Notes under the pieces: generated by a model
Databases searched by the model: none
The model's input: only the letters and a program-made list of their open reading frames with translations
Told to the model about the DNA's origin: nothing
NCBI RefSeq assembly: GCF_010091925.1
Contig: NZ_WVID01000008.1
Location: forward strand, 124,001-188,000
Length of the DNA stretch: 64,000 bases
Source: Nostoc sp. B(2019)
GTDB lineage: Bacteria > Cyanobacteriota > Cyanobacteriia > Cyanobacteriales > Nostocaceae
Direction: 5' to 3'
In this document: positions 22,602 to 64,000 of the stretch, in pieces
Layout of the letters: every line of letters begins with the position of its first letter
Position numbering within the stretch: position 1 is the first letter of the stretch
Program-made: the position numbers and the translations under genes

Positions 22602-22603
22602 AT

Positions 22604-26536: not shown

Positions 26537-26586
26537 AAAACTCGAAAATAACCCATCAAATAAAATATCAGCTTGAGTTGTAAATT

Positions 26587-28791: not shown

Positions 28792-28828
28792 TACTTTCTC
28801 AAGTTTAAATTGATAAATAAGCAAGTTC

Positions 28829-28877: not shown

Positions 28878-28920
28878 AAACCTCCAAAACTAGCTAGTCC
28901 TCACTACTAAATCCCCAATT

Positions 28921-47044: not shown

Positions 47045-48604
47045 TTAACTTCTCTGTCTTTCTCGTTTTTGAGAATTAGAAGAGTGATTAACAGATTGGT
47101 TAAAAGTCGATGGAACAAAGACCATAATTAATATTGCTCCAACAAAAAGAGCGATACTTGCGACGATTATGGCAGCGTGAAGCCCGGAAACGAAGGCATT
47201 GCCAAATGCTTGATTCCAAGTAAGCAAAGAAATATTAGTTGGGAGGTCAGTGGGAACTTTAGCCCCACCGTGCAAAGCATCAGCGATTAGTTGCTCTTGA
47301 AGGTTAGAAGGTAAGTTCCAAGACATTAGCGATCGCTTCAAATCTGAAGTCAGCCATTGTGTAAGAATCGTTCCTTGTATAGCAATTCCTAAAACCCCAC
47401 CTAATCGAGTACTCATGTTGAGCACTGCTGAGGCAATTCCTGCTTTGCTTGAGGGTGCTGAATTCAAAGCTACTGTTACTAAAGGTGCGAGTGTCAAGCC
47501 ACAGCCGAAGCCTGAAAGCACAAGGCTCAATAATATTGCTCCATACTCGGTATCGACATTGATTTGGATAAATAAAAATGTCGCTATACTTGCCAATATC
47601 AGTCCCGTCGTAATGGCAAAGCGCCACCCAAGGCGAGCCGCAACCCATCCCGAAAAAAGCGATGCGGTCACAAAAGCTGCATTCATTGGCAAGAAGCGTA
47701 TACCTGCTGCCGCTGCTGAATACCCCTGCACTTGCTGCAAGAATAAGCTGAAAATGAACAGCAAACTGATGATGGTGAAAAAGACCAAAATCGAGACGAA
47801 ATTGACTACAGAAAAGGTTGGATTGCGAAATAAAGTTAGTGGCAGCATCGGATGGCTGCTGCGAGACTCAACAAACAAAAATGCTAGAAAACTAAGTCCA
47901 GCAATTGTCAGTAGCAACACAATGAGTGGCGATCGCCATACTCCGTTATTGCCCTCGGTCAGCGCATAGATGAGCGAGCTTAAAAAGATGATACTGAGTA
48001 CCAAACCTGGCAAATCAAGACTTTGCTTTTTCGGATTGATCACTTCTTGAACAACACGGGAAGATATGCCAAAAGCGATCGCACCGAGTGGGACATTCAG
48101 AAAGAAAATACTCTGCCAACCGAAACTATCCACTAACAGTCCGCCCACCACAGGGCCCGCAACCAAGGCAAGCCCTGACACCGCAGACCAGATACCGATG
48201 GCTTTAGCTTGTTCCTTTGGCTTAGGAAATGTATGAGTGAGGATAGACAGAGAAGTTGGAATTAAGGCAGCAGCACCAATTCCCTGAAGAATTCGCCCAG
48301 CAATTAAAATATTTAGATTGGGAGCAAGACCACAAACTATAGAAGCGATCGTGAAAATAACTAATCCTGAAAGGAAAACTCGTTTGCGCCCGTAAATATC
48401 GCCTAATGTCCCACTCGTCAAGACTAGACTAGCGGCAGGCAAGGTGTAGGCGTTGAGAATCCACTGCAATCCCGACACACCAGAACCCAAACTTATCTGA
48501 ATTTTGGGAAGTGCCACATTCATAACCGTGTCGTCGAGATTGGTCATAAACAGTGCAAAACACATTGCCCCCAGCGTGATTGCTTTCACACGACCTTGAT
48601 TCAT
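47045..48604 (-). CDS. MFS exporter, DHA2/EmrB type
   Basis: A 519-residue, 14-helix major facilitator with the DHA2 motifs: LDDTVMNVALPKIQ in helix 1, GTLGDIYGRKRVFLSG after helix 2, and GPVVGGLLVDSFGW in helix 5 (motif C). Such proteins expel drugs and natural products by proton antiport. The start ATG at 48604 follows GAGGTAG and lies 8 bp after the stop codon of the glycosyltransferase upstream, so they are co-transcribed. It is the last gene of the 47-64 kb cluster, fitting export of the product. A copy of its ribosome site and first codons remains at 50004-50020. Confidence 0.9.
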   Translation of the reverse strand: MNQGRVKAITLGAMCFALFMTNLDDTVMNVALPKIQISLGSGVSGLQWILNAYTLPAASLVLTSGTLGDIYGRKRVFLSGLVIFTIASIVCGLAPNLNILIAGRILQGIGAAALIPTSLSILTHTFPKPKEQAKAIGIWSAVSGLALVAGPVVGGLLVDSFGWQSIFFLNVPLGAIAFGISSRVVQEVINPKKQSLDLPGLVLSIIFLSSLIYALTEGNNGVWRSPLIVLLLTIAGLSFLAFLFVESRSSHPMLPLTLFRNPTFSVVNFVSILVFFTIISLLFIFSLFLQQVQGYSAAAAGIRFLPMNAAFVTASLFSGWVAARLGWRFAITTGLILASIATFLFIQINVDTEYGAILLSLVLSGFGCGLTLAPLVTVALNSAPSSKAGIASAVLNMSTRLGGVLGIAIQGTILTQWLTSDLKRSLMSWNLPSNLQEQLIADALHGGAKVPTDLPTNISLLTWNQAFGNAFVSGLHAAIIVASIALFVGAILIMVFVPSTFNQSVNHSSNSQKRERQRS

Positions 48605-48612
48605 CGCTGTTA

Positions 48613-49839
48613 CTACCTCTGCTGGAGTAATTCTGTAGCTGTTGTTTGAGCGTTAGTGAGAATATTCTGCACAATCTCAGGGATTTCAAACACGGCTTGA
48701 TTGTTCACAGCGGCAACATTTGCACGATACTGAGCAAAATTTTCCGGTTGAAGAAACTTTTCAACAGCCTGATCAACATTCCGAAAACTATTAATTACTA
48801 AACCGACCTTTTTCTGTTGAATCCATTCGGTGTTGTATCGTTCATTAATTAATGTAGCTGCATTACGTTGCACAATCATTGGTAATTTCATTGCCAACGC
48901 TTCGCTAATACTAATACCACCTGGTTTACCAATAAAAAAATCGGCAAGGTGCATATAGTAAGGAATGTCCTGAGTAAAGCTGGTGACAAACCTCTTTTGA
49001 ACACCCTGACTTTCACGTAGAGTTACAGCTAGTTGCTCATTGCGTCCGCAAATAAATATTAGTTGTAGTTGTTGTTGAAAACACTCTAGACGCTTGGCAA
49101 TTTCTAGCATTGCTTTCGAGCCAAAACCCCCGAATAATACAATTCCTGTCAGACAGTCTGGATCTAAACCTAAACGTTCTCTTTCAGTGCGGCGTTCGCC
49201 TGAAATCGGTTCATAAAAGCGCGGGTTAATAATCAGTCCAGAAGTTTTGATAATTCGCTCTGGTTGCACTCCCAAAGAATGAGCTTGCTGTACTGCTTTT
49301 TCAGTTGCACAGACAATATAATTTCCGGTTTCTGGTTCTATATAAAAACCAGGCGGCGAATCGGCAAGATCCACACAAACTGTTACTAGAGGGGTGTCTG
49401 GTTTACCCTTCTGTAAACTGTCCCATAGCCCTTTGTTATACAAAGGTAATAAAGATATAACCATATCTGGCTGCTGCTGAAGCCAATATTCAGCAAAGAA
49501 CTCGACACCAGCATCGTAATTCAGCTTAAAAAGTAGTTTATCCAGCCATAAGATTAGCGGGTGAAGCCATGTCCAACCGCTTTTGAGCATCCTGTTATAC
49601 AACTCGCCGCCTGTAACTCCTGATAGGAGCTTATAGATATCTACTATCTTTTGTTGTTGAGCAAGGCTTTCTACTAGTTCGTCTACATCAGTAACCCTGA
49701 TTTCCCAGGGTAATTGTTGCTGCTCAACGATTGCACGTATTGCATGATAGGTGGCGTAATGCGCTCCACCATACCATGCGGTTACAACATTAATCTGAAT
49801 CTTTTTGTTGGGATGCGATCGCGATGAGAATGCTTTCAT
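48613..49839 (-). CDS. MGDG-synthase-like glycosyltransferase, copy 1
   Basis: A 408-residue GT-B transferase related to monogalactosyldiacylglycerol synthase and MurG. The C-terminal donor half has VLFGGFGSKAMLEIAKRL, LIFICGRNEQL and YYMHLADFFIGKPGGISISE, as in that family. The N-terminal family motif (GGGH/GAGH loop) is changed to TAWYGGAHYATYHAI. No membrane helix is present; the family associates peripherally with the membrane. It is nearly identical to the copy at 50015-51244; the two differ mainly in the first 15 residues and scattered sites. AAGAAG precedes the start. The donor could be UDP-galactose or UDP-galactofuranose given the glf gene in the operon. Confidence 0.85.
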   Translation of the reverse strand: MKAFSSRSHPNKKIQINVVTAWYGGAHYATYHAIRAIVEQQQLPWEIRVTDVDELVESLAQQQKIVDIYKLLSGVTGGELYNRMLKSGWTWLHPLILWLDKLLFKLNYDAGVEFFAEYWLQQQPDMVISLLPLYNKGLWDSLQKGKPDTPLVTVCVDLADSPPGFYIEPETGNYIVCATEKAVQQAHSLGVQPERIIKTSGLIINPRFYEPISGERRTERERLGLDPDCLTGIVLFGGFGSKAMLEIAKRLECFQQQLQLIFICGRNEQLAVTLRESQGVQKRFVTSFTQDIPYYMHLADFFIGKPGGISISEALAMKLPMIVQRNAATLINERYNTEWIQQKKVGLVINSFRNVDQAVEKFLQPENFAQYRANVAAVNNQAVFEIPEIVQNILTNAQTTATELLQQR

Positions 49840-50014
49840 TAGTCTTCTTTATGGGGTGTTGTTTAGCAAATGTGATTTTTTTGAATTTATATTGGCTATT
49901 TCTTTCTCAAATAATCCCAGCGCCCAAACCATAGTGACCTTTTCTTTATGAAGAAAAGTCCCTTACTCTAAAACTAAAATTTTATTATTGGCTCGACTGA
50001 ATTCATCGCTGTCA
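49840..50014 (-). pseudogene. Composite scar of glf, GMC and MFS fragments
   Basis: Three relics lie here in minus-strand orientation. About 49891-49938 matches the 3' end of the glf gene (TTGAGAAAGAAATAGCCAAT on the minus strand; residues LFEKEIAN). About 49939-49985 matches the 5' part of the GMC gene (residues KILVLE and GTFL of its FAD motif). About 50000-50014 keeps the ribosome site and ATGAAT start of the MFS gene. The order equals that of the intact block, indicating a partly deleted tandem duplication. Confidence 0.75.
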
Positions 50015-51244
50015 CTACCTCTGCTGGAGTAATTCTGTCGCTGTTGTTTGAGCGTTAGTAGTGAGAATATTCTGCAAAATCCCAGGAATTTCAAACACAG
50101 CTTGATTGTTCACAGCGGCGACATTTGCACGATATTGAGCAAAGTTTTCCGGCTGAAGAAACTTTTCAACTGCCTGATCAATATTCCGAAAACTTTTAAT
50201 AACCAGACCGACCTTTTTCTGTTGAATCCATTCGGTGTTGTATCGTTCTTGTGGTAGTGTAGCAGCATTACGTTCCACTATTACTGGTAATTTCATCGCT
50301 AGTGCCTCGCTGATGGAACCCGGGCCTGGTTTACCAATAAAAAAATCGGCAAGGTGCATATAGTAAGGAATGTCTTGAGTAAAGCTGGTGACAAACCTCT
50401 TTTGAACACCCTGACTTTCGCGTAGAGTTACAGCTAATTGTTCATTGCGTCCGCAAATAAATATTAGTTGTAGTTGTTGTTGAAAACACTCTAGACGCTT
50501 GGCAATTTCTAGCATTGCTTTCGAGCCAAAACCTCCAAATAATACAATTCCTGTCAGACAGTCTGGATCTAAACCTAAACGTTCTCTTTCAGTGCGGCGA
50601 TTGCTCAAAATCGGTTCATAAAAACGCGGGTTAATAATCAGTCCAGAAGTTTTGATAATTCGCTCTGGCTGCACTCCCAAAGAAGTAGCTTGCTCTACTG
50701 CTTTTTCAGTTGGACAAACAATATAGTTTCCGGTTTCTGGTTCTATATAAAAACCTGGAGGCGAATCAGCAAAATCCACACAAATGGTTACTAAAGGGGT
50801 GTCTGGTTTACCCTTCTGTAAGCTTTCACATAGCCCTTTGTTATACAAAGGTAATAAAGATATAACCATATCTGGTTGTTGCTGACGCCAATATTCAGCA
50901 AAGAACTCGACACCAGCATCGTAATTCAGCTTAAAAAGTAGTTTATCTAGCCCTAAGATTAGCGGATAAAGCCATGTCCACCCGCTTTTGAGCATCCTGT
51001 TATACAACTCGCCGCCTGTAAATCCCGTTAGCAGCTTGTAGATATCTACTATCTTTTGTTGTTGGGCAAGGTTTGCTACTAGTTCATCTACATCAGTAAC
51101 CCTGATTTCCCAGGGTAATTGTTGCTGCTCAACTATTGAACGGATTGCATAGTAAATAGCATAATGTGCTCCACCGTACCATGCGGTTACAACATTAATC
51201 AAAAACTTTTTTTCTGAAGATGAGGGTAATTGCGTTGTTTCCAT
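50015..51244 (-). CDS. MGDG-synthase-like glycosyltransferase, copy 2
   Basis: A 409-residue paralogue of the 48613 gene, with the same altered N-terminal loop (TAWYGGAHYAIYYAI) and donor-half motifs. One local difference is FFIGKPGPGSISEALAMKLPV where copy 1 has GKPGGISISE, close to the predicted donor-phosphate site. The surrounding DNA is also duplicated up to the start of the MFS gene. No strong Shine-Dalgarno is seen before ATG 51244. It lies 30 bp downstream of the methyltransferase gene. Whether both copies are active or have split acceptor preference is unknown. Confidence 0.85.
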   Translation of the reverse strand: METTQLPSSSEKKFLINVVTAWYGGAHYAIYYAIRSIVEQQQLPWEIRVTDVDELVANLAQQQKIVDIYKLLTGFTGGELYNRMLKSGWTWLYPLILGLDKLLFKLNYDAGVEFFAEYWRQQQPDMVISLLPLYNKGLCESLQKGKPDTPLVTICVDFADSPPGFYIEPETGNYIVCPTEKAVEQATSLGVQPERIIKTSGLIINPRFYEPILSNRRTERERLGLDPDCLTGIVLFGGFGSKAMLEIAKRLECFQQQLQLIFICGRNEQLAVTLRESQGVQKRFVTSFTQDIPYYMHLADFFIGKPGPGSISEALAMKLPVIVERNAATLPQERYNTEWIQQKKVGLVIKSFRNIDQAVEKFLQPENFAQYRANVAAVNNQAVFEIPGILQNILTTNAQTTATELLQQR

Positions 51245-51274
51245 AAATACAAATAATTTCCGATAAAAATTGGA

Positions 51275-52201
51275 TTAAATACTTTTGCGGAACATGATTG
51301 CCATTCCTGAATGAAAACTGAGCCAATAGCCAAAAATAGCGTAAAAGAGGAATTTAAAAGAGGTTAACGCTTTTCCTAGTTTGAATGGCTCAAAAACAGT
51401 GTCTACTGAGCCGTCAAAAAGACTGACATACGTGCTCATAGCCCGACCATTGAAGCCAAATAAGGGTGTATCGTCAAATCTCCGATCAAAGAAATCTATA
51501 GGCTCCCATCCCTGACAACGCCCTAAATATTCGAGGGATTCACGTGTGTATATATGAAGGTGATAAGGGACATGGACAAAATTATAATCATCAGGTAAGT
51601 CGGGCCGGTTGAGGTTGAGATTAGCGGCGTCGGGTGTACCGATTAAAATATAACCACCAGGGGACAACAGACTGTTTAACTTGCTTAATAAAACATGAGG
51701 ATCTTCAACATGTTCGATGACATCTTGACTCAAGATGTAATCAAATGACCCGCGCTGTAAGGTTGTCGGATCACCAAAACCGTCCTCTGGCGCGTAAGGA
51801 TCATAACCGTAGGAATTAGCAAAGCCGTGTTGTCGTAGATATTCTACAAACAGACCATTAGCACCACACCCATAATCAAGGAATGAGTTAGTTTTGGAAA
51901 ACCCATGCTTTGTCAACTGACGGCATAAACTGCCATAGATAATTTGATATATCCATGTCAATTTAGCTTCAAAAAGAGGGAATTTTGCGTAGTAATGGTC
52001 TAGATCGACGACATCTAGACAATGAATTGTCTGGCAATCGGGACATCGCCAAACCTTGAACTTTTCGTCTATAAAGGCTCTGACATTACAAGGGAATGTA
52101 GAAAATGCAGATTCATCATTTGGATCGACGCGATAATGACAAATCGAACACTCAAGGCGTTGCGTTATTGTACTGCTGTATTTGTCCTTCATTACCTTCA
52201 T
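51275..52201 (-). CDS. Class I methyltransferase with N-terminal zinc ribbon
   Basis: A 308-residue protein. The N-terminus has a four-Cys pair, CSICHYRVD and WRCPDCQTIH, likely binding zinc. It is followed by a methyltransferase domain with FLDYGCGANGLFVEYL (SAM loop), YILSQDVIEHVEDPH and SPGGYILIGTPDA, as in the Methyltransf_23 group that modifies sugars and other small metabolites. Its ATG overlaps the glf stop codon by four bases (ATGA), so translation is coupled to glf. This favours methylation of the sugar or aglycone of the same product. Confidence 0.85.
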   Translation of the reverse strand: MKVMKDKYSSTITQRLECSICHYRVDPNDESAFSTFPCNVRAFIDEKFKVWRCPDCQTIHCLDVVDLDHYYAKFPLFEAKLTWIYQIIYGSLCRQLTKHGFSKTNSFLDYGCGANGLFVEYLRQHGFANSYGYDPYAPEDGFGDPTTLQRGSFDYILSQDVIEHVEDPHVLLSKLNSLLSPGGYILIGTPDAANLNLNRPDLPDDYNFVHVPYHLHIYTRESLEYLGRCQGWEPIDFFDRRFDDTPLFGFNGRAMSTYVSLFDGSVDTVFEPFKLGKALTSFKFLFYAIFGYWLSFHSGMAIMFRKSI

Positions 52202-53328
52202 GAGATTGAATTAGCTATCTCTTTCTCAAACAAACCCAGCGCTCTAGCCACTGCGTGATCCATGTCGTAGTATTTGTAATCTCCAAGTCGCCCTGCAAAC
52301 AGTACAGTTCCGTTGAGTTTCTCTACTTCTTTGAGGTATAAGCTCAGGCGATCGCGGTTATCTTCATTGAGAATAGGATAGTATGGATCGTTTTTTCCTG
52401 GTACATAAGCTTGAGGATATTCCATCACCAAAGTGGTTTTAGGAGAGGTTTGTCCTGACAAATACTTCTGCTCAGTGATGCGGGTAATATCGTAGTCGTT
52501 GGGGTAATTAACTGTACCAACCTCTTGATACGATTCTTGATCTAAAGTCTCAAACTGGAAGCGCAAGCTACGATACGGCAATTCTCCATACATATAATCA
52601 AAGAAAGTATCAATTGACCCAGTACAAAGTATCCGATTAAACTTAACGTCGTTGATAATCTCGCGGTAGTCTGTGTTCAGCAATACTTTAATGTTGGAAT
52701 GAGCCAACATCCGACGGAACATTTCGGTATAACCAAGCTTGGGCATAGCCTGGTAAGGGTCTTGAAAGTAACGGTTATCTCGACTGATGTAAACTGGAAC
52801 ACGTCCTGTGACTCCGCGATCAAGTTCCTCTGGTTTCACACCCCATTGCTTCATGGTGTAGCGGAGAAAGACATTTTCATAAATGTAATCGGCTAGAAAG
52901 GTTAGTTCCCCGCTAGTACTCTCACGCAGTTTCAAAATGGGTACTTTAACACCAAAACCAAAGTTTTCTAAAAGTAAATTTTCTAGCTTCTCTGCATATT
53001 TTGGCGGAAAAAGAGCATAGAGGGAATTTAAATTAAAAGGAATAGGGACTTTCTTACCTTCCACTACTCCAAGCACATGATGATAGTAGTGTCTCCATTC
53101 CGTAAATTCTGAGAGATAATCCCAGACTTTTTTTGACCTAGTATGAAAGATATGCGGCCCGTATTTATGAACTAGGATGCCATGCTCGTTGTAGTAATCG
53201 TAAGCATTTCCGCCAATGTGATCTCGTTGTTCTACAATTAGCACTCTTTGCCCAAGCTGAGTTGCTATGCGTTCAGCCATTACGCAAGCTGAGTATCCCG
53301 CCCCTATGATCAGCCAATCAAATATCAT
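52198..53328 (-). CDS. glf: UDP-galactopyranose mutase (stand-alone)
   Basis: A 376-residue flavoenzyme converting UDP-galactopyranose to UDP-galactofuranose. The FAD motif is WLIIGAGYSACVMAERIA, followed by DHIGGNAYDYYNEHG and KYGPHIFHTRS; the C-terminus has LFAGRLGDYKYYDMDHAV with the conserved Arg. AGGAG lies before ATG 53328. It is a paralogue of the mutase domain at 25320-26420. In a biosynthetic operon with three glycosyltransferases it points to a galactofuranosylated product. The 3' end overlaps the methyltransferase start; a relic of this gene's end lies at 49891. Confidence 0.93.
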   Translation of the reverse strand: MIFDWLIIGAGYSACVMAERIATQLGQRVLIVEQRDHIGGNAYDYYNEHGILVHKYGPHIFHTRSKKVWDYLSEFTEWRHYYHHVLGVVEGKKVPIPFNLNSLYALFPPKYAEKLENLLLENFGFGVKVPILKLRESTSGELTFLADYIYENVFLRYTMKQWGVKPEELDRGVTGRVPVYISRDNRYFQDPYQAMPKLGYTEMFRRMLAHSNIKVLLNTDYREIINDVKFNRILCTGSIDTFFDYMYGELPYRSLRFQFETLDQESYQEVGTVNYPNDYDITRITEQKYLSGQTSPKTTLVMEYPQAYVPGKNDPYYPILNEDNRDRLSLYLKEVEKLNGTVLFAGRLGDYKYYDMDHAVARALGLFEKEIANSIS

Positions 53329-53461
53329 TTATTTCACTCCTATTATTGTTTGGACAACGTATATATCTTTTTGTTTTTATTCGGAAATATTACTATTTAA
53401 AGTTTTGGATTTTAACGATTTTAAAAAGGTAGTTACCTTATGAGATACCCCTATAAATTAG

Positions 53462-55000
53462 TCATCTGAGTCTTTCAAGTAGATGCTCTCCAACTCGCAA
53501 AGCGTTCGCCATAATTGTTAGTGTTGGGTTCAATGCAGCACTAGACGGGAAAAATCCACCATCAACAACGTAAAGGTTATCAACATCATGGGTGCGGCAA
53601 TTTATATCAAGTACAGAAGTTTTAGGGTCTTCACCAAAACGACAAGTTCCACACTGATGTCCAACATCTTTCAAAGACATCTTTGTCGTAATATAAAGTG
53701 AGGATGGGCCAATTCTTTTATCTAAATCAATAGACTTTAAAACTTGCCTCCAGCGTTTGATTAAACGATTAAATGCTTCTTCATTGTTATTTGTATACTC
53801 AAGAAAAATTTTCTGATCTTTGACACGTACGCGATTATTAGGATCTGGCAAATCTTCAGTCATCAGGAACCAACCAAGAGCACGATTCGCCACTGCCTCG
53901 TATATTGCGCTGGGTAGAGGTGGGCCATTAATGGCAGCTCTCTCTTTAGAGATATTGCCAAGTGATTGTACGTGTCCCATTGGGTAAGCAAAATCTTTTT
54001 CTCCCCAATAAAAATCATTAATGGCAAGTGTTTTAGGATAAACTATGGGGTTAGGTTTGATAGTTAAAACCACGATCGCCCCAATTTTATGCGCCATGTA
54101 ATTGCATCCCACAAGATTAGAACTATTTGCTAATCCATTCGGATGTTGGTCATTGGCAGATTTGAGTAACAATACTGCTGAGTTGATTGCACCACAAGCA
54201 ACAATAACTATATTCCCCGAAAACGTCTGGCAGTTGCCTGCGATTTCTGCTTCTACTTTAGTAACCTCTCGACCCGATGCACTGGTATGTAAGCGCAAAA
54301 CTTTTGCTTCGGTCATCAAAGTGAGATTGGGATAAACTTTTGCTGGACGTACACCGTTAACGTCAGCATCAGCTTTGGCATCAATCAAACACGGGAAACC
54401 ATCGCAAGTATCGCAACGAATACAAGCACTTAAAGAACGATTGACTTCATTAAGCTTGATCCCAAGCGGCTGGTAAGAGGGATGAAAGCCTTTATCTTTA
54501 AGAGCATAGTTGATTTGTTGAATGTATGGTTCGTGGCTGATTGGTGGAAAAAGATAGTCTTCATTGCTTGGCGGTTCAGTCGGGTCAAAACCGCGCTGAC
54601 CATGTACTTCGTAAAGTTTTTCAGCCTGAGTGTAGTAGGGAGCAAAGTCTTGGTACTTTAAGGGCCATTCTGGTGAAATACCATCTTGATGAATGACTTT
54701 TTCAAAGTCCCGTTCGCGGAATCTATATAGGGCGCTACCGTAAAATTTGGTGTTACCACCAACGAAATAGTGTGTAAGTGGGTGTATTGCTTTGCCTTGT
54801 TTGTCGTACCACACTTCAGAAGTTCGATAGCGGTCTTTTTGAACGACTTCTTGAGAATCCCAATTGGCTTTTTCTTTAGGAAGAAAAGTCCCTCGCTCTA
54901 AAACTAAAATTTTCTTTCCACTTGGTGCGAGGACATTTGCTAGAGTTCCACCACCTGCACCCGTACCAATAATGATGACATCGTAATGCTCTTTAACCAT
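53462..55000 (-). CDS. GMC-family FAD oxidoreductase
   Basis: A 512-residue glucose-methanol-choline type oxidoreductase. The N-terminal FAD motif is YDVIIIGTGAGGGTLANVLA followed by LVLERG, and the C-terminal GMC signature is VDGGFFPSSAALNPTLTIMA with the active-site His in GHQCGTCRFG. A Cys-rich insertion, ACIRCDTCDGFPCL, occurs in related cyanobacterial members. It would oxidise an alcohol of the product or precursor. No clear Shine-Dalgarno precedes ATG 55000. It is flanked by an SDR upstream and glf downstream; a fragment of its 5' end lies at 49939. Confidence 0.9.
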   Translation of the reverse strand: MVKEHYDVIIIGTGAGGGTLANVLAPSGKKILVLERGTFLPKEKANWDSQEVVQKDRYRTSEVWYDKQGKAIHPLTHYFVGGNTKFYGSALYRFRERDFEKVIHQDGISPEWPLKYQDFAPYYTQAEKLYEVHGQRGFDPTEPPSNEDYLFPPISHEPYIQQINYALKDKGFHPSYQPLGIKLNEVNRSLSACIRCDTCDGFPCLIDAKADADVNGVRPAKVYPNLTLMTEAKVLRLHTSASGREVTKVEAEIAGNCQTFSGNIVIVACGAINSAVLLLKSANDQHPNGLANSSNLVGCNYMAHKIGAIVVLTIKPNPIVYPKTLAINDFYWGEKDFAYPMGHVQSLGNISKERAAINGPPLPSAIYEAVANRALGWFLMTEDLPDPNNRVRVKDQKIFLEYTNNNEEAFNRLIKRWRQVLKSIDLDKRIGPSSLYITTKMSLKDVGHQCGTCRFGEDPKTSVLDINCRTHDVDNLYVVDGGFFPSSAALNPTLTIMANALRVGEHLLERLR

Positions 55001-55057
55001 TTTTGCTGCGTTTTCAAAGAAGTTGCTTATTAGCTAAGTAAGAAGCTTGGACGCAAT

Positions 55058-55891
55058 TTAGTTGTAGACAAGATTCCCCGCTTGCATTTGCTTTTCTGCA
55101 CAGCTTTGGTTCAACTCCACCACGCCAAGTCGCTGAAAAACCATATCGCCAAATTGCGGCGAAAGTTGTGAAATCGCAAATAAGATTTTGGAAGCAGTTC
55201 CATCTAGTACTACTTCCTTTTGATTTTGCTTAATGGATTGAAGTATTGCGTCTGCGACTTCTGTTGGTTGAGCAACGCGGGCTGTACTGGGCACTGTTAT
55301 ATCAAGAGCATGATACATCCCGGCATCGGTACATCCAGGACAAACTATCGAAACCCCGACATTAGTACTAGCTAATTCCTGCTGTATTGCATCCGACCAC
55401 ATTATCAAACCAGCTTTACTAGCCGAATAAATGCTGTTATAAGGCGCTCCCTTTTTACCAGCCGAAGAGGCAATATTGACAATATGACCGCTATTGCGCT
55501 CTAGCATACTTGGCAGTAGCAGACGGGTTAACTCCATCGGTGCTAGAAGATTGGTCGTCAATATAGATTGAAAATCTTCTAAGGTGTAGTTCTGGAAAGG
55601 TCGGTATTTTTCTATTGCAGCATTATTAATCAAAATATCGATTGGGCCTGCAAGTTGATGAATCTGCTGCGTTAGAACTGATAATTTTTCCAATTTGCTG
55701 AGATCAAATGGAATACTTATACCTTTACCGCCCGCAGCTTCGACTTCAGCACATATTTGATCTAGACCTTTTTGAGAACGAGAAACACTAACTATAGTTG
55801 CTTGTTCTTTTGCCAGAGCACGAGCAATAAATGCTCCAATCCCACCTGATGCGCCAGTCAAAACAACTGTTTTACCTGCTATATTTTTCAT
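55058..55891 (-). CDS. Short-chain dehydrogenase/reductase 1
   Basis: A 277-residue SDR with the NADP loop VVLTGASGGIGAFIAR, the NNAA motif (ILINNAAIEKYR) and the catalytic Ser-Tyr-Lys (NIASSAG, YNSIYSASKAGL). A strong AAGGAGG lies before ATG 55891. It resembles DltE/YohF-like SDRs with an extra C-terminal helix around PQFGDMVFQRLGV. It is a clear paralogue of the SDR at 57208, the two flanking a glycosyltransferase. Likely role is reduction of a beta-keto group on the acyl chain or oxidation of a sugar; the sequence alone does not decide. Confidence 0.88.
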   Translation of the reverse strand: MKNIAGKTVVLTGASGGIGAFIARALAKEQATIVSVSRSQKGLDQICAEVEAAGGKGISIPFDLSKLEKLSVLTQQIHQLAGPIDILINNAAIEKYRPFQNYTLEDFQSILTTNLLAPMELTRLLLPSMLERNSGHIVNIASSAGKKGAPYNSIYSASKAGLIMWSDAIQQELASTNVGVSIVCPGCTDAGMYHALDITVPSTARVAQPTEVADAILQSIKQNQKEVVLDGTASKILFAISQLSPQFGDMVFQRLGVVELNQSCAEKQMQAGNLVYN

Positions 55892-55977
55892 CTTCCTCCT
55901 TTATTTGATGTGGAAATTGAAATGCGATCGCCTCTGACAATTTGTCCGATAAAATTTGAGATACACTCGAATTATCT

Positions 55978-57132
55978 TCAAACTGGCAGAGGTTTTTGAG
56001 CAGATTTTAAGTAGGAATTTTCCAGGATTCTTTCCAAATTCTCGACTACTTCAAATACAGCTTGATTATTGTAAGCTTTGACATTCGCCTGATAGCGAGC
56101 AAAATTTTCAGGCTGGATGAGTTCTGTGACAGATTGGTTAATATCACGAAAGTTATTAACTACAATACCGAACCCGTTATCTGCAAGCCAATCAGCGCTA
56201 GCCCGTTCTTGAAACAGTGTCATGGTATTATTACATTCTGTAATCACTGGCAGATTCATTGCTATAGCTTCGCTGACTCCGACACTACCCGGTTTGCCGA
56301 TGAAAAAATCCGACAAATGCATATAGTAGGGAATTTGACTTGTAAAACCTTCAACAAATCTCGGCAAACGACTTTGACTATTTCGCAAATCTCTGGCTAG
56401 TTCTTCATTGCGTCCGCAGATAAATATGAGTTGCAAATTTAGTGATGACTGCTCCAAACGTTGAGCAATTTCAAGCATTTCCTTTGAGCCATGACTGCCA
56501 AATATAACTAAGCCAGTGGGTAAATCTGGCTTTAGTCCTAAACGTTGTCTTTCAATTTGGCGGTCGCTACTCACCGGCTCATAAAATCGAGGATGAATTA
56601 CTATGCCTGAAGTCCGATAAATTCTTTCATTTGGATAACCACAAGATTGCGCCTGCTTAACTGTTTGTTGGGAAGGACAAATCAGAAATTGCTTTTGAGC
56701 TTCTATCCAAAAGTTAGGAGGACAATCAGCAAAATCCGTGATTGAAGTAACAAAGGGAATATCTGGTAGTTCCGCCTGTAAGCTTTCGTAAAGCACTCGG
56801 TTTACCAGTGGGAGCAATGAAACTACTAAATCAGGCTGTTGCTCGCGCCAATATTTTCTCAAAAGGTTTCGCCAAGCAGAATGACGTAAGCGAATTTGCA
56901 GCTTGAACAAAGGAACTGACAAGGGATCGTTGATAATTTTTGCCCACTTTTTTTTCAGGACAAAATTGTTATATATGTACTGGGGCTGAGTTGTTTCAAA
57001 TACTTCTTTAAAAACTTCGACTATTTGAACTTCCCAAGGCAATTTTCGCCTTTTAATAACTTCTACTAAAGCATTGGCAGTGCTGCGGTGTCCTGCGCCC
57101 ATATCGTAGATCATGAAACATACTTTTTTCAT
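55978..57132 (-). CDS. MGDG-synthase-like glycosyltransferase, divergent third copy
   Basis: A 384-residue GT-B transferase with the family's N-terminal loop intact (MIYDMGAGHRSTANALVEVI), unlike the two copies downstream. The C-terminal half shows VIFGSHGSKEMLEIAQRLE, LIFICGRNEELA and YYMHLSDFFIGKPGSVGVSE. AGAGGAG precedes ATG 57132. It lies between two paralogous SDRs. By family it would glycosylate a lipid-like or acyl acceptor at the membrane. It may add the first sugar, and copies 1 and 2 later ones, but this is inference. Confidence 0.87.
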   Translation of the reverse strand: MKKVCFMIYDMGAGHRSTANALVEVIKRRKLPWEVQIVEVFKEVFETTQPQYIYNNFVLKKKWAKIINDPLSVPLFKLQIRLRHSAWRNLLRKYWREQQPDLVVSLLPLVNRVLYESLQAELPDIPFVTSITDFADCPPNFWIEAQKQFLICPSQQTVKQAQSCGYPNERIYRTSGIVIHPRFYEPVSSDRQIERQRLGLKPDLPTGLVIFGSHGSKEMLEIAQRLEQSSLNLQLIFICGRNEELARDLRNSQSRLPRFVEGFTSQIPYYMHLSDFFIGKPGSVGVSEAIAMNLPVITECNNTMTLFQERASADWLADNGFGIVVNNFRDINQSVTELIQPENFARYQANVKAYNNQAVFEVVENLERILENSYLKSAQKPLPV

Positions 57133-57207
57133 TTAATTCAATCTCCTCTATATATTGTTTTTATTGTTTATTTCTATCTAGTGATTATTTTTGATTGTTC
57201 TAAATGC

Positions 57208-58074
57208 TTATTTAACTAAACTCGATTTCTTTCGAGAATTTTCGGCGCGGATCTGATTTTCTATCCGCATTTGATTTAGCTTCGGTACGCCAATCCACTG
57301 ATTAACTACATCTCCAAATCGGGGAAAAAATTGTTCAACTGCAAATAACAGCTTTGTCAGATTTTTTGTGACGGGATTGCCATTAACAATTACTTCTGCC
57401 TGATTTTGCTCTATCGCTCTAACTACTGCTCTCGCTACATCTGCTGGTGTTGACACACCTCCAACACTTGGTACAGGTACGCCAGTATCAGCGAGCATTC
57501 CCTGTTGAGAAACATATCCTGGACAAATTGAAGAAATTCCTACGCCAGTACCAGCCAACTCTTGTCTAATCGCATCAGACCACATTAACAAACCAGCTTT
57601 ACTTGCAGAATAAACACTGTCGTAAGGATGTCCCTTTTTGCTAGATAGAGAGGCCATATTAACAATGTGACCGCTACTTTGATGTAACATTTTCGGTAAT
57701 ACCAAGCGAGTTAACTCCATAGCAGCAAGTAAATTGACTGACAAAACTGACTGAAGATCTGCAAGAGAGTAATCAGGGAAGGCTCGATATATTTCTATGC
57801 CAGCATTGTTAACTAAAATGTCAACTGAACCTGCAAGCTGCTCAATTTTTCGTAGCAAGATTGGGAGTTCTTCCACGTTGCTAATATCGAAGCGAATGCC
57901 TATTCCTTTCCCGCCCAAAGCATTAACTTCTGCACATACTTTATCTAGCCCTTCCTGCGAACGAGAAACACCAACTATAGTTGCTTGTTTTTCTGCCAAC
58001 ACGCGAGCAATAAATACACCAATACCTCGTGAGGCTCCTGTTAAAACTACTGTTTTACCTGCTATAGTTGTCAT
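57208..58074 (-). CDS. Short-chain dehydrogenase/reductase 2
   Basis: A 288-residue SDR, paralogous to the 55058 gene: VVLTGASRGIGVFIARVLA, ILVNNAGIEIYR, NMASLSSKKGHPYDSVYSA and SKAGLLMWSDAIRQE. The catalytic Ser-Tyr-Lys are all in place. The start at ATG 58074 lies 10 bp after the stop of the docking-domain gene, with no Shine-Dalgarno, so translation is probably coupled. The pair may carry out two successive redox steps on the same substrate. Confidence 0.88.
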   Translation of the reverse strand: MTTIAGKTVVLTGASRGIGVFIARVLAEKQATIVGVSRSQEGLDKVCAEVNALGGKGIGIRFDISNVEELPILLRKIEQLAGSVDILVNNAGIEIYRAFPDYSLADLQSVLSVNLLAAMELTRLVLPKMLHQSSGHIVNMASLSSKKGHPYDSVYSASKAGLLMWSDAIRQELAGTGVGISSICPGYVSQQGMLADTGVPVPSVGGVSTPADVARAVVRAIEQNQAEVIVNGNPVTKNLTKLLFAVEQFFPRFGDVVNQWIGVPKLNQMRIENQIRAENSRKKSSLVK

Positions 58075-58084
58075 ATTTCAGTTA

Positions 58085-59947
58085 TCAGTTATTAACTAGT
58101 TCGGTAAAAGAAGCAAAATGCTTGCCGCCTAATTCGATTTGTCCCTGTTTAATTCCGGTTTCTAATCTGGCTAATAGATACTCCAAATCACTAGTGATAA
58201 TGTTTGTTCCGTGATCTGGTTCGATCAAACTAGCTAAAGTAATGTTGTCATTTTTGCTTGCTAAGGTATGAATGCCAAGAAAGTTGAAAACTCCTGATTC
58301 ATAAGTTCCACAAGGTACAGAAGGATTATCGACTCCAGTGCAATACTCGTTTTGCTGCAACCAATCCCTTGAAGGATATCCATGAAAATGAATCATTGGT
58401 GCGCCGTCTTTAATTAGTTCGGGTGTGTATAAAGCTGCTGCAAGAGCAATCCCAACCAAAACATAGAGATCGTAAGAAGGTTTAATATCTACTACTGCGG
58501 GATCGATTCCTTCCGGTATTTGCAGACATAATTTGTTTTTTAAACCAATTCTGAGAATATCGCGCTCAAGGCTTAAATCTGTTTTATTTGAGCCAGAACG
58601 AGAACTTACTAGCCAGATATCAGGAATTTGCTTATAAAAGTATTGATTTCCTATTTTTGTTTTTACATATCGCCTACCTATATCATTTTGACGGACTTCA
58701 TTGTTACTCAATCCTTCTACAGCTAATAAATTTTCCCATTCGTTCTCAGATATTTCGCGATCGCCAACATATTGTGGTGCTTCTGCATAAGCGACAAAAC
58801 CGTAAGAAACACCTGTTCTGCCGTTAACAATCGAGTCTACAATATCTCTATGAGATTTCCTTTTAATAATTTCACCTAGCTTAAAGCCAGAAGGAAATAA
58901 ACCTGTTGCTGCTAATTTTTCACTCAATTTTACTAATTTAGCAGCATAAATAGATTCTTTAGGATCATATTTACCTACCTCAAATCGGCTCATTGGTAAA
59001 GGCGCGATCGGTACGTAAATTTTGGGAATTAATGATTTAAAAACAAAATTATCAAATTTTTCTCTAGAAAAGAGCGAATCGGAAAGATTCATATTTAATA
59101 TGGAAATATTGCTATCAGATACGCCAATAACAATCTCCGAAAACGTCTTCACCAGAGTATTTACACCAATGGCTATTTTTTGTTGATATGGAACTTGTGA
59201 ATCAACAAAATTCTGATCTAGTTCTGCAATTAAAATTACCAAGGTAGATGTAGGATCTTCAAGACGTTGCATTGCATGGTCTTCAGCCCACCCAATTAAC
59301 TTAGCAATTGTTGAAACCGACATTTTGCGGTTTTTTAAGATGAAACGACAATAAAATTGATAAAATTTCTCTGCTACAAGGCTTTTAATTTTGTCTTTTA
59401 AATAAACAGGTCTTTCAACATCAATTACTCCATTAATATCCGCTTTAACAAACCTCATTTTAATAGTTTTTTTCCACTTAGTCAGAGGAATATCGATTTC
59501 ATAGTTAAACTCTCTTGTTGCGTCTTCCCAAGAGACAATTTGCGCCCCATAGTTTTGCAGTTTCAGTTCTAATTCTTCTCTAAACTTGGAGATAATTTTA
59601 TTTTTAAAGCCTTTTGGCAATGGTCTAAAAGTGACTTTAATCTGTTTCGCCATCACGTTGGGGTCGATAATCGGCGACTTGAATTGTATAGGTGATGTCT
59701 GGCAGAACCCACCAAGTAAACGGCCAATTGTCTGGAGGCTAAGTCCCGGCCCATCGGGGATAAAAGTGTCGCACTCATCGTTATTTTCACGCAAAAAAGA
59801 GAGAATTTCTGTTTTACGTGCGGTTATGTCTGCCTGAAGTTGTGGTGTCAGTATACCCTTGGGAGAATTAACCCTGAGCTTGTCATTATCAGCCCACAAC
59901 TGAACACCTTGCTGAGTAAGATTTGTCAAAAGTTCTGATACGTTCAT
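58085..59947 (-). CDS. TubC-type docking domain fused to an unrecognised ~560-residue region
   Basis: The first 55 residues (MNVSELLTNLTQQGVQLWAD, then GILTPQLQADITARKTEIL) match TubC N-terminal docking domains, which join NRPS and PKS subunits. The remaining 560 residues resemble nothing I know: no condensation, adenylation, methyltransferase or hydrolase motif is visible. Segments of interest are MIHFHGYPSRDWL, CTGVDNPSVPCGTYESG and PSYDLYVLVGIALAAALY. There is no signal peptide. ATG 59947 is preferred to the upstream TTG. It is 67 bp downstream of the acyl carrier protein gene. The docking domain suggests that it acts on carrier-bound intermediates. Function unknown. Confidence 0.8.
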   Translation of the reverse strand: MNVSELLTNLTQQGVQLWADNDKLRVNSPKGILTPQLQADITARKTEILSFLRENNDECDTFIPDGPGLSLQTIGRLLGGFCQTSPIQFKSPIIDPNVMAKQIKVTFRPLPKGFKNKIISKFREELELKLQNYGAQIVSWEDATREFNYEIDIPLTKWKKTIKMRFVKADINGVIDVERPVYLKDKIKSLVAEKFYQFYCRFILKNRKMSVSTIAKLIGWAEDHAMQRLEDPTSTLVILIAELDQNFVDSQVPYQQKIAIGVNTLVKTFSEIVIGVSDSNISILNMNLSDSLFSREKFDNFVFKSLIPKIYVPIAPLPMSRFEVGKYDPKESIYAAKLVKLSEKLAATGLFPSGFKLGEIIKRKSHRDIVDSIVNGRTGVSYGFVAYAEAPQYVGDREISENEWENLLAVEGLSNNEVRQNDIGRRYVKTKIGNQYFYKQIPDIWLVSSRSGSNKTDLSLERDILRIGLKNKLCLQIPEGIDPAVVDIKPSYDLYVLVGIALAAALYTPELIKDGAPMIHFHGYPSRDWLQQNEYCTGVDNPSVPCGTYESGVFNFLGIHTLASKNDNITLASLIEPDHGTNIITSDLEYLLARLETGIKQGQIELGGKHFASFTELVNN

Positions 59948-60014
59948 AAATAAACTCAAAATTCAAAAATGGTTTTTACAACTCTGTAAATAAATTTCCC
60001 AGCGGCTAAAATAT

Positions 60015-60326
60015 TCAAATTTCAAACATTTCTAATTCCGAAGCTTTTAATTCTTCAGCTAAGTATTGAGATAGTGATTCAACATTAGGATAATTCCAAA
60101 TTATCAGCGGAGATAGCTGTAATCCAAAATATTGTTTTCCTAGATTCGCAATGTTCATTGTTTGTACAGAATCTAAACCGTAGCTGTCGAAAGGTGCTCG
60201 GATATCGATTTCATCAGGATCAGTTCCTACCTGTTCGGCAATTTGACAAGTCAGCCAATCTTGCATATCTTCTGTTGACATCGATTTAGTACTGATTTGT
60301 TGATTTTCCAAAGTTTGTTCTCCCAT
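60015..60326 (-). CDS. Acyl carrier protein
   Basis: A 103-residue free-standing carrier protein with the phosphopantetheine site SYGLDSVQTMN (Ser 53) and typical helices. The N-terminal 20 residues are a polar extension. AAGGGAG lies before ATG 60326. It lies 14 bp downstream of the ketosynthase gene, so the pair work together. The context suggests that an acyl or polyketide chain is built on or transferred through it. Confidence 0.92.
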   Translation of the reverse strand: MGEQTLENQQISTKSMSTEDMQDWLTCQIAEQVGTDPDEIDIRAPFDSYGLDSVQTMNIANLGKQYFGLQLSPLIIWNYPNVESLSQYLAEELKASELEMFEI

Positions 60327-60340
60327 TAATATTTACTCCC

Positions 60341-62905
60341 TTATTTCAACAAATGTTGAGCTAACACTTCTAATAGTTCTGGCATTAATTTCATTTGGGC
60401 TTCTGAAAAATTACCTGTCTCCCTTAAAAGTTGAGCTATCTGTTGGGTTTCTCCTAAGTGGAAAAAGGTAGCAAATTCAGCTTGACTATTGTGTTCTAAT
60501 GTGGTTATTTCTTTTTGTCCATTTTCAGTCGTTTTAAACCAGTAACGCTGTCTCTGAAAAGGATAAGTTGGCAATTGGAGGCGAGAATGAGGATAATGCC
60601 TGTGAAAGCTAGACCAGTCTATTACTGCTCCACGAATAAATAATTCTCCTAAACTGTGGAGTATTTCTAGCCAATCCTCTTGTCCTTGATGCAAGCTAGA
60701 TAAGCAAACTCCCACTTCCTCTGGTATGGAAGTTAATTTTGAAGCGATCGCTAAAAATATATGATCACCTGCTAAAGTCTCTATACCAGCAGTCAATTTC
60801 CCTGGCTGCTGCAAGTGACAACACCAATATTCAGCAGTAGCTATTTCTTTTGTCGTCAGTTCTCCAGGAAGACTGGAAATTAGCGGAATTTGTGGTTGAG
60901 AGTAGCTAACTTCTTTGGCGATTTCTGCAAAAGCTTCCACCATCTTTTCCGGCTGGAGAGAAGATTGCATTAAACGACTTCGTTGTGTAACCAACTTTAG
61001 AGCATCTTCGAGATCAAACACGCCAGCTACGCAAGCAGCAACATATTCTCCTACGCCATAACCCGTAACTACTTTGGGTTTGATGCCCCAAGATTGCCAT
61101 AATTTGGCTAGGGCATACTCTACAGCAAAGAGGGCAGCTTGATCTAATACAGAACTCTCTTTGGTGGCTGGATACAGAATCTCAAGGAGAGGCTTTTCTA
61201 AGTAAGGTTGGAGAATTTGAGCGCAGCGATCAATAGCTCTACGAAAGGTAGGCTGAGTATTATAGAGTTGCCATCCCGTGGAGCGAGATTCTGTTCCCTC
61301 GCCAGGGAAGAAGAAGGCAATTTTTGGCCGCTTTCTGCCCTTTACCTTGCCCTGCAACAGTCCAGTAGTTTCCTTTTGAGCGATAAAAGCGCTTAACTGC
61401 TGGCGTAATTGCCCAACTGATTCAGTCACGATACAAAGACGATGGTCAAAATGTGTCCGTCCTGTATTGGCACTAAAGCAGACATCTGCTAGCGATACAT
61501 CAGGATTAGACTCTAAAAAGTCTTGATAACTTTGTGCCAGTTCTCCCAGAGCCAAATCAGTTTTTGCTGAGAGTGTGATTAAATGGCCGCAACGTTGAAC
61601 ATCTCTGGGCACTGGCGCTGATACTGGTGCTTCTTCTAAGATAACGTGAGCATTGGTGCCTCCGAAACCAAATGCACTTACACCAGCCAAACGACTTTGT
61701 TCCCCACGATACCATTTCTGAAGCTCCGTTGGAATTGAAAATGTAGTATTTTCTAGAGAAATATAGGGATTAAGCTGCGTCAAATGCAGGTGAGGAGGGA
61801 TTTCCTCATGTTGCAGCGACAGAACTACTTTGATCAAAGCAGAAATCCCCGCAGCAGCTTCCAAATGACCAATATTTGTCTTGACTGAGCCAATCCAACA
61901 GGGTCTATCTGGCTCACGACCCTCCATGAGTGCGGCTTTTAAAGCTTTAAACTCGATGGCGTCTCCGATGGATGTGCCAACGGCGTGAGCGTCAATGTAG
62001 CTAATCTTTGCCGGTTGAACTTTGCCATTTTCCAAGGCTTGGCGAATCACCGCCTGTTGAGCGAGTCCATTAGGTGCAGTAAGACTATTACTCAACCCAT
62101 CTTGGTTAACTGCTGAACCTCTGATGAGTGCGAGAATGTTGTCTTTGTCTCTTACAGCATCACTGAGGCGCTTGAGCACAACTACGCCGCAGCCTTCTCC
62201 CCTAACATAACCATCAGCGTTGGCATCAAAAGACTTACACTGACCAGCAGATGACAGCAGGCGTGTCTGAGACGAGGAGATAGTCGAATCCGGCGATAAA
62301 ATTAAGTTTACTCCTCCAGCTAGGCATAAATTCGATTCTCCGTTTCGTAAACTCTGGCAGGCTAAGTGGACTGTCACCAGAGACGAAGAACAAGCAGTAT
62401 CTATTGCCATACTGGGGCCACGCAAATCTAGCAAATAAGATAAGCGATTAGCTGTAATGCAGGGAGTTGTTCCCGTGCCACTATGTAATCCAATGCAAGA
62501 GAAATTTTTATAAAGAAGTCTATGGTAATCGATGGTACATAGACCGATAAATACTCCTGTCTGACTGCTAGCTAGACTAGTTGGTACTATTCCAGCATTT
62601 TCTAAAGCTTCCCAAGCTACCTCTAAAAATAGTCTTTGTTGGGGGTCTGTATGCTCGACTTCATCACGAGAAATTCCAAAAAAGTCAGCGTCGAACAAAT
62701 CCACCTGCTCTAGAAAACCACCCCAACGGGTGCTCATTTTCCCTGGTGTATTGGGATTGGGATCGTAGAAGGCATCAATATCCCAGCGTTCTTTTGGTAC
62801 TTGCGCGATCGCATCCTTACCATTACGCAATAGCTTCCAGAAGGATTCGGGATTTTTCGCTTTGGGAAAACGGCAACCAATGCCAATAATTGCTATGGGT
62901 TCCAT
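60341..62905 (-). CDS. Modular-type ketosynthase with degenerate acyltransferase
   Basis: An 854-residue type I PKS protein. The ketosynthase (1-430) keeps its Cys172 ([10 protein letters not shown]), His307 and His347 ([12 protein letters not shown]), although the usual HGTGT reads HAVGT. A KS-AT linker follows. The acyltransferase (about 526-790) has lost its function: FPGQGSQ is [10 protein letters not shown], the GHSxGE nucleophile motif is GYGVGE (Ser617 position is Gly), and about 110 residues including the active-site His region are missing between RSRLMQ and the [15 protein letters not shown] segment. The tail [19 protein letters not shown] is of a type seen after AT domains in cyanobacterial PKS. 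No KR, DH or ACP is in the chain; the ACP is encoded next door. Extender loading must come from elsewhere or is not needed. Confidence 0.9.
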
Positions 62906-62985
62906 CTAAATTGTTTGCCCAATAGTATTGATCTATGCTGACTAGCGAGATATCAACTCGCTAGTCTAGTCATGAAAGTCGTACT

Positions 62986-64000
62986 CTAGCTCTCCTGCTC
63001 CATAACCGATTTGGAGAACTCTTTAAAAGTCTGAGTATTCTTTTGGAGTGCTTTGCTAATCGAGCCTCCAGCAGCCATAATGCCCATTTCGCGGTTAATT
63101 TTCCATTGATAGTCTAGGCGACTAAATAGTCTTTGCATTAATTCCAGGAGGCTTTGATGATATTTGAGTCCGACATGATAGCCTTCGTGTTCTTGACAGA
63201 AGCACTTTTCCATCCAATCGAGGGCTTCTTTGGTTTCCATCCCAAATAGAGGAGATTTCAAGAGTTTGTAGTAAAAGACCATTAGCATGGGGTCATCGTA
63301 GACGCAGCGACCAGGTAACACTCCAGAAAGACCGCTCAGAAGGTTGCGTTGCGCCATATAAATCGCCAAACCAGATACAAATTTCTCGTAAGCAGTTGGC
63401 TTCGGGAAATCCTTATACATATCTTTGGCAATGGTTTGAGAAATCGTGGTGTGGAAAGCTTCGTCTAATAAATGGTAATAGGAGACAGCTGTTGGGGTCG
63501 GGATATACTCGCTTTTTTGCTCTAACTCTCGGAAATATCTGACATAAGGATATTCTTGGTTCTTGAGAATCGCATTAGCCGTATAGCGCAAGGAATAATA
63601 CTGACACGCCATAAACGGCGACATTCCCCAGTGAATGGTGAAAAACCGTAACCAATGACGTGGTGCGATTCGCCCTCCTAGACCATCAGCTGGTGCGGGA
63701 ATTGGCTCGCCTCTTTGCTCTAACTCTTGCAAATACCGAGAGTAATACTGTTTTTTATCACTAAGCATCGTCTTAGCGATCGCATTTAAGGCGTTGTCTC
63801 GGTATTCTGAAAATGTTGAGTCCCCATTACCTGATGAGGTGAAGAAATTCTGCACAGGCTGAGGAATTAAGGATCGAAGCCAGTTATTATTCTCTTTATC
63901 TGATTTGCCATAAAGGGAATTTCCCAATATGGTTTTACCAACTATGGCCATTTTCGTTTTGTAGCCGATCTTTTGAAAGGTACGAATGTGATAACTTTCT
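62986..64000 (-). CDS. Ferritin-like di-iron protein, 5' end beyond window
   Basis: The frame is still open at base 64000 (reading YHIRTFQKIGYKTK before the first Met at 63951), and that Met has no ribosome site, so the gene very likely starts outside the window. The protein has two ExxH motifs, DEAFHTT and HEGYHVG, typical of ferritin-like di-iron carboxylate oxygenases such as the AurF group. A repeated unit precedes them: NAIAKTMLSDKK with YLQELEQRGEPIPAP, then NAILKNQEY with YFRELEQKSEYIPTP. It lies 80 bp upstream of the ketosynthase on the same strand and probably oxidises the carrier-bound chain or its starter. Family assignment is tentative. Confidence 0.65.
   Translation of the reverse strand, partial: ESYHIRTFQKIGYKTKMAIVGKTILGNSLYGKSDKENNNWLRSLIPQPVQNFFTSSGNGDSTFSEYRDNALNAIAKTMLSDKKQYYSRYLQELEQRGEPIPAPADGLGGRIAPRHWLRFFTIHWGMSPFMACQYYSLRYTANAILKNQEYPYVRYFRELEQKSEYIPTPTAVSYYHLLDEAFHTTISQTIAKDMYKDFPKPTAYEKFVSGLAIYMAQRNLLSGLSGVLPGRCVYDDPMLMVFYYKLLKSPLFGMETKEALDWMEKCFCQEHEGYHVGLKYHQSLLELMQRLFSRLDYQWKINREMGIMAAGGSISKALQKNTQTFKEFSKSVMEQES

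Follow-up and report, generated by a model that had tools for sequence, protein, structure and literature searches.

Which product does a cyanobacterial gene cluster make when it combines polyketide-type chain assembly with glycosyltransferases and a supply of UDP-galactofuranose (UDP-Galf), and does it belong to a pathway that is already known? This question is raised by a run of minus-strand genes in Nostoc sp. B(2019), whose genome comprises 7.43 Mb in 109 contigs. We studied the run in a 64-kb stretch, hereafter the window (NZ_WVID01000008.1:124,001-188,000), and all coordinates below are window positions unless stated otherwise. An earlier note on this DNA had described the run, from a di-iron protein to a major facilitator superfamily (MFS) pump, as a glycosylated acyl cluster forming one operon, with a galactofuranosyl lipid as a possible product and no described cyanobacterial pathway of the same gene set. 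Our analysis suggests that the run is most likely a re-equipped relative of the nostochloroside (ngl) pathway, with a known core, a different sugar and tailoring set and a shortened assembly line.

A halogenase and a CylK homologue at the ends of the run

The genes named earlier are all present as minus-strand open reading frames (ORFs) with the stated Pfam family, except for the di-iron protein, which is recognized by halogenase motifs instead. From the ketosynthase (KS) gene to the MFS gene, intergenic gaps range from -4 to 175 bp, and the genes for UDP-galactopyranose mutase (Glf) and a methyltransferase overlap by 4 bases (ATGA), as had been noticed; terminator-like sites were not enriched (17 versus 15.4 in shuffled sequences). 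Gene content and spacing are consistent with a glycosylated acyl cluster in one operon, but the boundaries given for it were wrong. The window ends within the di-iron ORF, and the run continues on both sides, with an acyl carrier protein (ACP1), a desaturase and a fatty acyl-AMP ligase (FAAL) to the right and a CylK homologue to the left. These missed ends explain the cluster.

Since the contig extends rightward past the window end, we could read the di-iron ORF in full. It occupies positions 62986-64000, starts 407 bases further right and encodes 473 aa with QESYH at residue 136 and HLLDEAFH at residue 312, matching the QExxH and HxxDExxH active-site motifs given for dimetal halogenases in a 2025 study (PMC12101540). 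Both motifs recur in 29/29 distinct homologue ORFs that span 400 aa or more in the loci we retrieved, the window's included. The protein had no Pfam match at E 0.001, with AurF below its cut-off (23.7 versus 29.6 bits), and no relative in the PDB by sequence (best E 0.5). Judged by its motifs, the di-iron protein is a predicted CylC-type halogenase; its presence had been seen earlier, but its halogenase nature, like the CylK homologue that closes the run, had been missed.

The CylK homologue (753 aa, positions 44694-46955) is encoded on the same strand, 89 bp left of the MFS gene. Pfam alone shows it as beta-propeller repeats only, but phmmer aligned its residues 22-644 with residues 95-663 of the solved CylK chain, across both domains (E 4.2e-105). 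Its R32, E406 and Y440 align with R105, D440 and Y473 of CylK, where Arg105 and Tyr473 bind the alkyl chloride and Asp440 is the base; the Arg/Tyr pair and an acidic base are thus kept, and E406 and Y440 are invariant in an alignment of 15 sequences. A Glu base is also found in NglO, the ngl enzyme, and in BrtB, which makes esters. At the position of CylK Glu374, described in an eLife text as Glu in CylK and Arg in BrtB, the window protein has Ser346. In a tree of 32 CylK homologues, a clade of 19 rows (support 100/99) joined 17 window-type rows to two ngl-type rows that represent the ngl side in place of NglO itself, and rows with cyl- or brt-like residues fell outside this clade. One such outside locus (L080) has CylK's own residue spacing and, upstream, a 373-aa gene that by eye resembles a type III polyketide synthase (PKS). 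The end gene of the run thus encodes a CylK homologue, predicted to use alkyl chlorides and couple them to a nucleophile.

The CylK homologue has matches at E <=1e-60 in 46 of the 217 genomes of the family and at E <=1e-30 in 55/291 genomes sampled order-wide, where many weaker rows cover only the propeller part. The nearest named matches among those listed come from Nostoc sp. MG11 (95%) and Aff. Roholtiella sp. LEGE 12411 (92%). In five strains (L141, L142, L143, L144 and L145), the CylK homologue is reported with one or two in-frame stops, which may reflect decay or sequencing error.

To the right of the window, the halogenase gene is followed by genes for the 108-aa ACP1, a 342-aa fatty acid desaturase and the 620-aa FAAL, separated in this order by 79, 316 and 34 bp; past the FAAL, after another 768 bp, comes a response regulator that has an AraC-type domain. 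The desaturase ORF (L005:2131-3159) is whole here, but G367 and G366 (our labels for compared genomes), which are close relatives, yielded only fragments of it, which suggests that it may be dispensable; the G368 contig starts within the desaturase region.

Probable kinship with the nostochloroside pathway

The ngl cluster (pks3) of Nostoc punctiforme ATCC 29133 combines PKS modules with a FAAL, a glycosyltransferase and homologues of CylC and CylK, and its deletion linked it to chlorinated glycolipids, the nostochlorosides, which carry 6-O-methylgulose (PMC10849952, Nat Chem 2024). According to that paper, purified NglO oligomerizes nostochlorosides through an ether bond assigned from mass spectra and has residues R84, E428 and Y460 and a C-terminal RTX domain; the mid-chain hydroxyl is the favored nucleophile in ngl, with a 2-OH as a possible alternative. 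As a stand-in for ngl, we used the locus of Desmonostoc geniculatum HA4340-LM1 (G387). Its CylK homologue has R54, E398 and Y430 with the residue spacing of NglO (R-E 344, E-Y 32) and an RTX-like glycine-rich tail. Its PKS proteins carry KS, acyltransferase (AT), ketoreductase (KR), dehydratase (DH), enoylreductase (ER) and ACP domains as KS-AT-KR-ACP, KS-AT-DH-ER-KR-ACP and KS-ACP. In the KS of the KS-ACP protein, Gln replaces the first His. This set agrees with the domains listed in the ngl legend and with its inactivated KS (KS*).

Like ngl, the window run holds a FAAL, an ACP, CylC, a type I KS, a glycosyltransferase and a CylK homologue with the Arg/Glu/Tyr set in one locus, so the statement that no described cyanobacterial pathway has this set was too strong. 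The stand-in and the window have in common the FAAL, ACP1, CylC, KS, a second carrier protein (ACP2), TubX (a protein with a docking domain, described below), a short-chain dehydrogenase/reductase (SDR1), a methyltransferase and CylK. The ngl product contains a methylated hexose, and homologues of the window methyltransferase, 65% identical to it, occur in two ngl-type loci, G387 and G340. Together, these findings make it probable that the run is an ngl-like cluster of the nostochloroside type, producing a chlorinated glycolipid that is coupled via its chlorinated carbon.

Several observations weigh against this interpretation. Unlike ngl, the window lacks the KS/KR/AT/DH/ER reducing modules and the inactivated KS* and has a single KS whose AT is dead; by Pfam, the run holds free-standing SDRs but no PKS-type KR, DH or ER module. 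With no KR module in the window, the chain should be shorter, the mid-chain hydroxyl may be missing, and the coupling nucleophile may be another one. The window CylK homologue has no RTX tail, being by eye without the glycine-rich repeats of the G387 protein, and NglK, the "sugar epimerase" of ngl, has no recognized counterpart among the window genes. By identity to the window protein, the CylC relatives in the compared loci fall into one group at 74-99% and another at 50-54%, and since the ngl-type loci G387 and G340 hold the latter group, the chlorination site may differ. Kinship to ngl was also judged through the stand-in and the text of the ngl paper rather than from the N. punctiforme sequence. 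The window further differs by the addition of Glf, a GMC oxidoreductase with its partner SDR2, and the MFS protein, and by a glycosyltransferase like monogalactosyldiacylglycerol (MGDG) synthase after SDR1, where G387 has a GT4 enzyme.

Other known systems share less with the window. The cyl cluster for cylindrocyclophanes has the halogenase and the beta-propeller enzyme that uses alkyl chlorides, but no type III PKS was found among the scanned cluster proteins of the window, which has Glu at the Asp440 and Ser at the Glu374 position. Bartolosides are glycosylated lipids, and BrtB of the brt cluster is a CylK-family enzyme that acts on an alkyl chloride with a Glu base, as predicted here; on the other hand, no dialkylresorcinol family occurred among the scanned window cluster proteins, and Ser stands where BrtB has Arg. 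Type I PKS CylC clusters of the chlorosphaerolactylate, columbamide, microginin and puwainaphycin type place a FAAL and an ACP upstream of CylC and a PKS downstream, as in the window, which adds sugar genes and CylK; the section of PMC8406957 on these clusters describes neither CylK nor Glf. Our searches of the open-access literature turned up no described cluster with Glf.

Sugar and tailoring genes across related loci

The Glf protein (positions 52198-53328) is full-length, scores 434.7 bits against TIGR00031 of NCBIfam (curated cut-off 303.75) and matches the solved UDP-galactopyranose mutase 3hdq with E 6.8e-113. Upstream of it lie a GMC oxidoreductase (53462-55000), SDR2 (55058-55891, Pfam adh_short), the MGDG-synthase-like glycosyltransferase GT1 (55978-57132), a candidate for the first glycosylation, and SDR1 (57208-58074). 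On its other side are an S-adenosylmethionine-dependent methyltransferase (51275-52201, Methyltransf_23), which may be a sugar O-methyltransferase, a second MGDG-synthase-like glycosyltransferase, GT2 (50015-51244), which is a candidate Galf transferase, its tandem copy GT3 (48613-49839, Glyco_tran_28_C and MGDG_synth) and the MFS transporter, a presumed exporter (47045-48604, MFS_1, E 9.8e-56). GT3 is 91% identical to its neighbor GT2, indicating recent tandem duplication or conversion, and GT1 is 48% identical to GT2.

We compared 28 loci (window included) that each have CylC, the ngl-type KS, TubX and a CylK homologue; these were picked by a good CylK or TubX match and are related by descent. 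A gene was scored as present if a tblastn hit spanned 70% or more of the window protein and passed identity cut-offs, set after seeing the values, of at least 55% for GT2/3 (hits of 44-48% being GT1), 60% for GT1, 70% for SDR2 (lower being SDR1) and 85% for Glf. An intact Glf was present in 20/28 loci, and all 20 also had a GT2/3-type transferase. Without intact Glf, this transferase occurred in three of eight loci (G145, G352, G384) and was missing from five (G416, G387, G340, G325, G372); the association has a Fisher p of 5.7e-4, in which kinship among the loci is not accounted for. We left out 14 loci with an incomplete core (G187, G162, G233, G259, G242, G324, G328, G294, G442, G293, C33 of G000, G058, G235 and G142), and since their examined stretches gave no Glf hit, the count of 20/20 is unaffected.

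Of the loci that lack intact Glf, G416, G372, G352 and G384 have GT1, and G416, G387, G340 and G384 have the methyltransferase; six Glf-bearing loci had no methyltransferase (G457, G432, G361, G405, G381 and G368). Since GT1 and the methyltransferase occur without intact Glf, they need not depend on it, and GT2 and GT3 are likelier users of UDP-Galf. For the same reason Glf is not part of the pathway core, and the galactofuranosyl lipid suggested earlier becomes a plausible galactofuranosyl branch of the product, as judged from the full-length Glf and its company with GT2/3.

The GMC gene occurred in nine of the 28 loci, always with SDR2; both were absent in 18, and G372 alone had SDR2 without GMC, beside a Glf remnant. 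SDR1 was present in 27 loci, G325 being the exception. The gene after SDR1 is GT1 in the window and a GT4 in G387 (Pfam), with a similar sequence by eye in G340 and G145, and further genes may intervene between SDR1 and the glycosyltransferase in other relatives (G229, G440). In the copy from Aff. Roholtiella sp. LEGE 12411 (L242, G368:C30), GMC was hit twice in tandem and the methyltransferase not at all. The window also contains a plus-strand galactose region (13521-29907), which lies about 18 kb to the left of the CylK gene and is a possible second source of UDP-Galf. It encodes GH2, galactose-1-phosphate uridylyltransferase, galactokinase, GH43, a GH1-RmlD fusion, an epimerase and a glycosyltransferase-Glf fusion that is 48% identical to the cluster Glf.

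Chain assembly, TubX and the proposed product

The KS protein (positions 60341-62905) keeps the active residues C172, H307 and H347. Its AT is decayed, as first noted from the raw sequence: Gly617 (GYGVGE) occupies the place of the Ser in the AT motif GHSxGE, and the Pfam AT model matched at 2-129 of 319 only. With the AT dead, any extender unit would come in trans. Among the 28 loci, 12 (window included) had one KS hit, 11 had two and five had three. The KS was read in nine of the 12 one-KS loci, and all nine keep Cys/His/His with the AT Ser lost. The last KS was read in ten of the 16 multi-KS loci, and all ten have the first His changed to Gln; nine of these ten have an intact GHSVGE in the AT of the first module, and the G340 ORF stops before the AT. 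Identity to five relatives in 14 segments placed the window KS nearer the first module in nearly every segment, and the AT region nearer the first module in three of the five (G265, G229 and G379, with ties), G440 and G416 being mixed. This comparison addressed the idea that the window protein is a chimaera of a first-module KS and the dead AT of a terminal KS*, which we dropped as unsupported.

Downstream of the KS lie the free-standing ACP2 (60015-60326; PP-binding, E 7.2e-14) and TubX (58085-59959), in which Pfam recognizes only a TubC_N docking domain, followed by about 560 residues of unknown fold. Beyond the docking domain, TubX had no credible relative in Pfam, in NCBIfam or in the PDB, the last searched both by sequence and with a 20-sequence profile. 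At E up to 5, one of nine TubX members matched DUF1539 (0.022) and another Spo16_N (0.12), neither credibly, and an AlphaFold2 model built from nine sequences reached a mean pLDDT of 48.8 and is not usable. Near full-length matches (E <1e-230) occurred in 110/217 family genomes, with ten more matching in the docking domain only, and of 386 genomes sampled phylum-wide, 32 matched the TubX core, 30 of which belong to the same family. From its gene position, TubX may act in chain release. The Nostoc sp. B(2019) genome has another TubX locus (L220, G000:C33:46700-66694; TubX at 14666-16543), which holds an ACP, a PapA-type acyltransferase, an epimerase-family gene, a methyltransferase, a GT4 and an SDR. 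The stretch examined gave no hit to CylC or CylK, and the locus is possibly an unhalogenated glycolipid cluster.

Starting from the gene identities, motifs, catalytic residues, clade and co-occurrence reported above, we infer substrates, step order, chain length, sugar identity, export and the ether bond as follows. The FAAL would load a fatty acid onto ACP1, where the desaturase may unsaturate the chain and the halogenase would chlorinate one of its carbons. The KS would then pass or extend the chain to ACP2, and TubX with SDR1 would complete it and free it from the carrier as a hydroxylated lipid. The first sugar would be attached by GT1 and methylated by the methyltransferase, Glf would supply UDP-Galf to GT2/GT3, and the GMC/SDR2 pair may oxidize and then re-reduce one alcohol. 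The MFS protein would export the product, and the CylK homologue would swap chloride for hydroxyl to give ether-linked oligomers.

In nostochloroside A, C7 of palmitate becomes C12 (PMC10849952), so palmitate C1 corresponds to C6, the hydroxyl-bearing carbon. One KR-only and one fully reducing module would account for C6-OH and the saturated carbons to C3. C2 would then be the last thioester carbon, and C1 an extra carbon left to the KS*/ACP/TubX end, which fits the module order of G387. The ngl authors propose instead cleavage of a larger product, which may be the case, and the odd-numbered carbon chain is treated as unexplained in their account (PMC10849952).

The same genes allow other products. 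It is possible, if less likely, that the chlorolipid core is the same while Glf, GT2/GT3 and MFS only build or export a surface glycan, leaving GT1's sugar alone on the coupled lipid. The six loci with GT1 or methyltransferase and no intact Glf (G416, G387, G340, G372, G352 and G384) speak for such a division, as do G440 and G067, which by eye have extra glycosyltransferase- and flippase-like ORFs among these genes. However, Glf and GT2/3 sit within the same closely spaced run, and GT2/3 accompany intact Glf in every locus that has it, a count not corrected for descent. It is less likely still that the CylK homologue uses a carboxylate or carbon nucleophile, giving an ester or C-C bond rather than an ether. 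The nucleophile classes reported for the CylK family are resorcinol, carboxylate and hydroxyl (PMC10849952), and BrtB, an ester maker, also has the Glu base, so the nucleophile is unreadable from these residues alone; the grouping with ngl-type enzymes, the absence of type III PKS and other resorcinol-forming families from the cluster proteins that were scanned, and the Ser that is neither the Glu of CylK nor the Arg of BrtB argue against this reading.

We consider it very improbable that the product is non-halogenated and heterocyst-glycolipid-like, with the di-iron protein acting as a hydroxylase or desaturase. Five opened loci do have TubX next to the same ACP type and no CylC/CylK hits (G293, G000 C33, G058, G235 and G142), but both halogenase motifs are intact in the window protein, and the CylK homologue of the same run retains the Arg and Tyr that bind the chloride. 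A heterocyst glycolipid (hgl) island has been defined by at least 7 of 19 hgl-island homologues together (PMC11804610). Returning to the chlorinated, coupled glycolipid that we favor, we tentatively extend it to a widespread ngl-like branch in the family that would make galactofuranosylated chlorolipids, ether-polymerized and exported. In this speculative extension, TubX would be a new chain-releasing and possibly one-carbon-adding enzyme in a KS/dead-AT/ACP/TubX terminal unit, and GMC/SDR2 would invert one alcohol.

Across the compared loci, the halogenase/CylK pair is kept, sugar genes are swapped and the assembly line is shortened. Comparing products across these strains could therefore reveal the determinants of chain length, sugar and nucleophile, and it is TubX that is singled out at the end of the pathway, where ngl has its unexplained odd-numbered chain.

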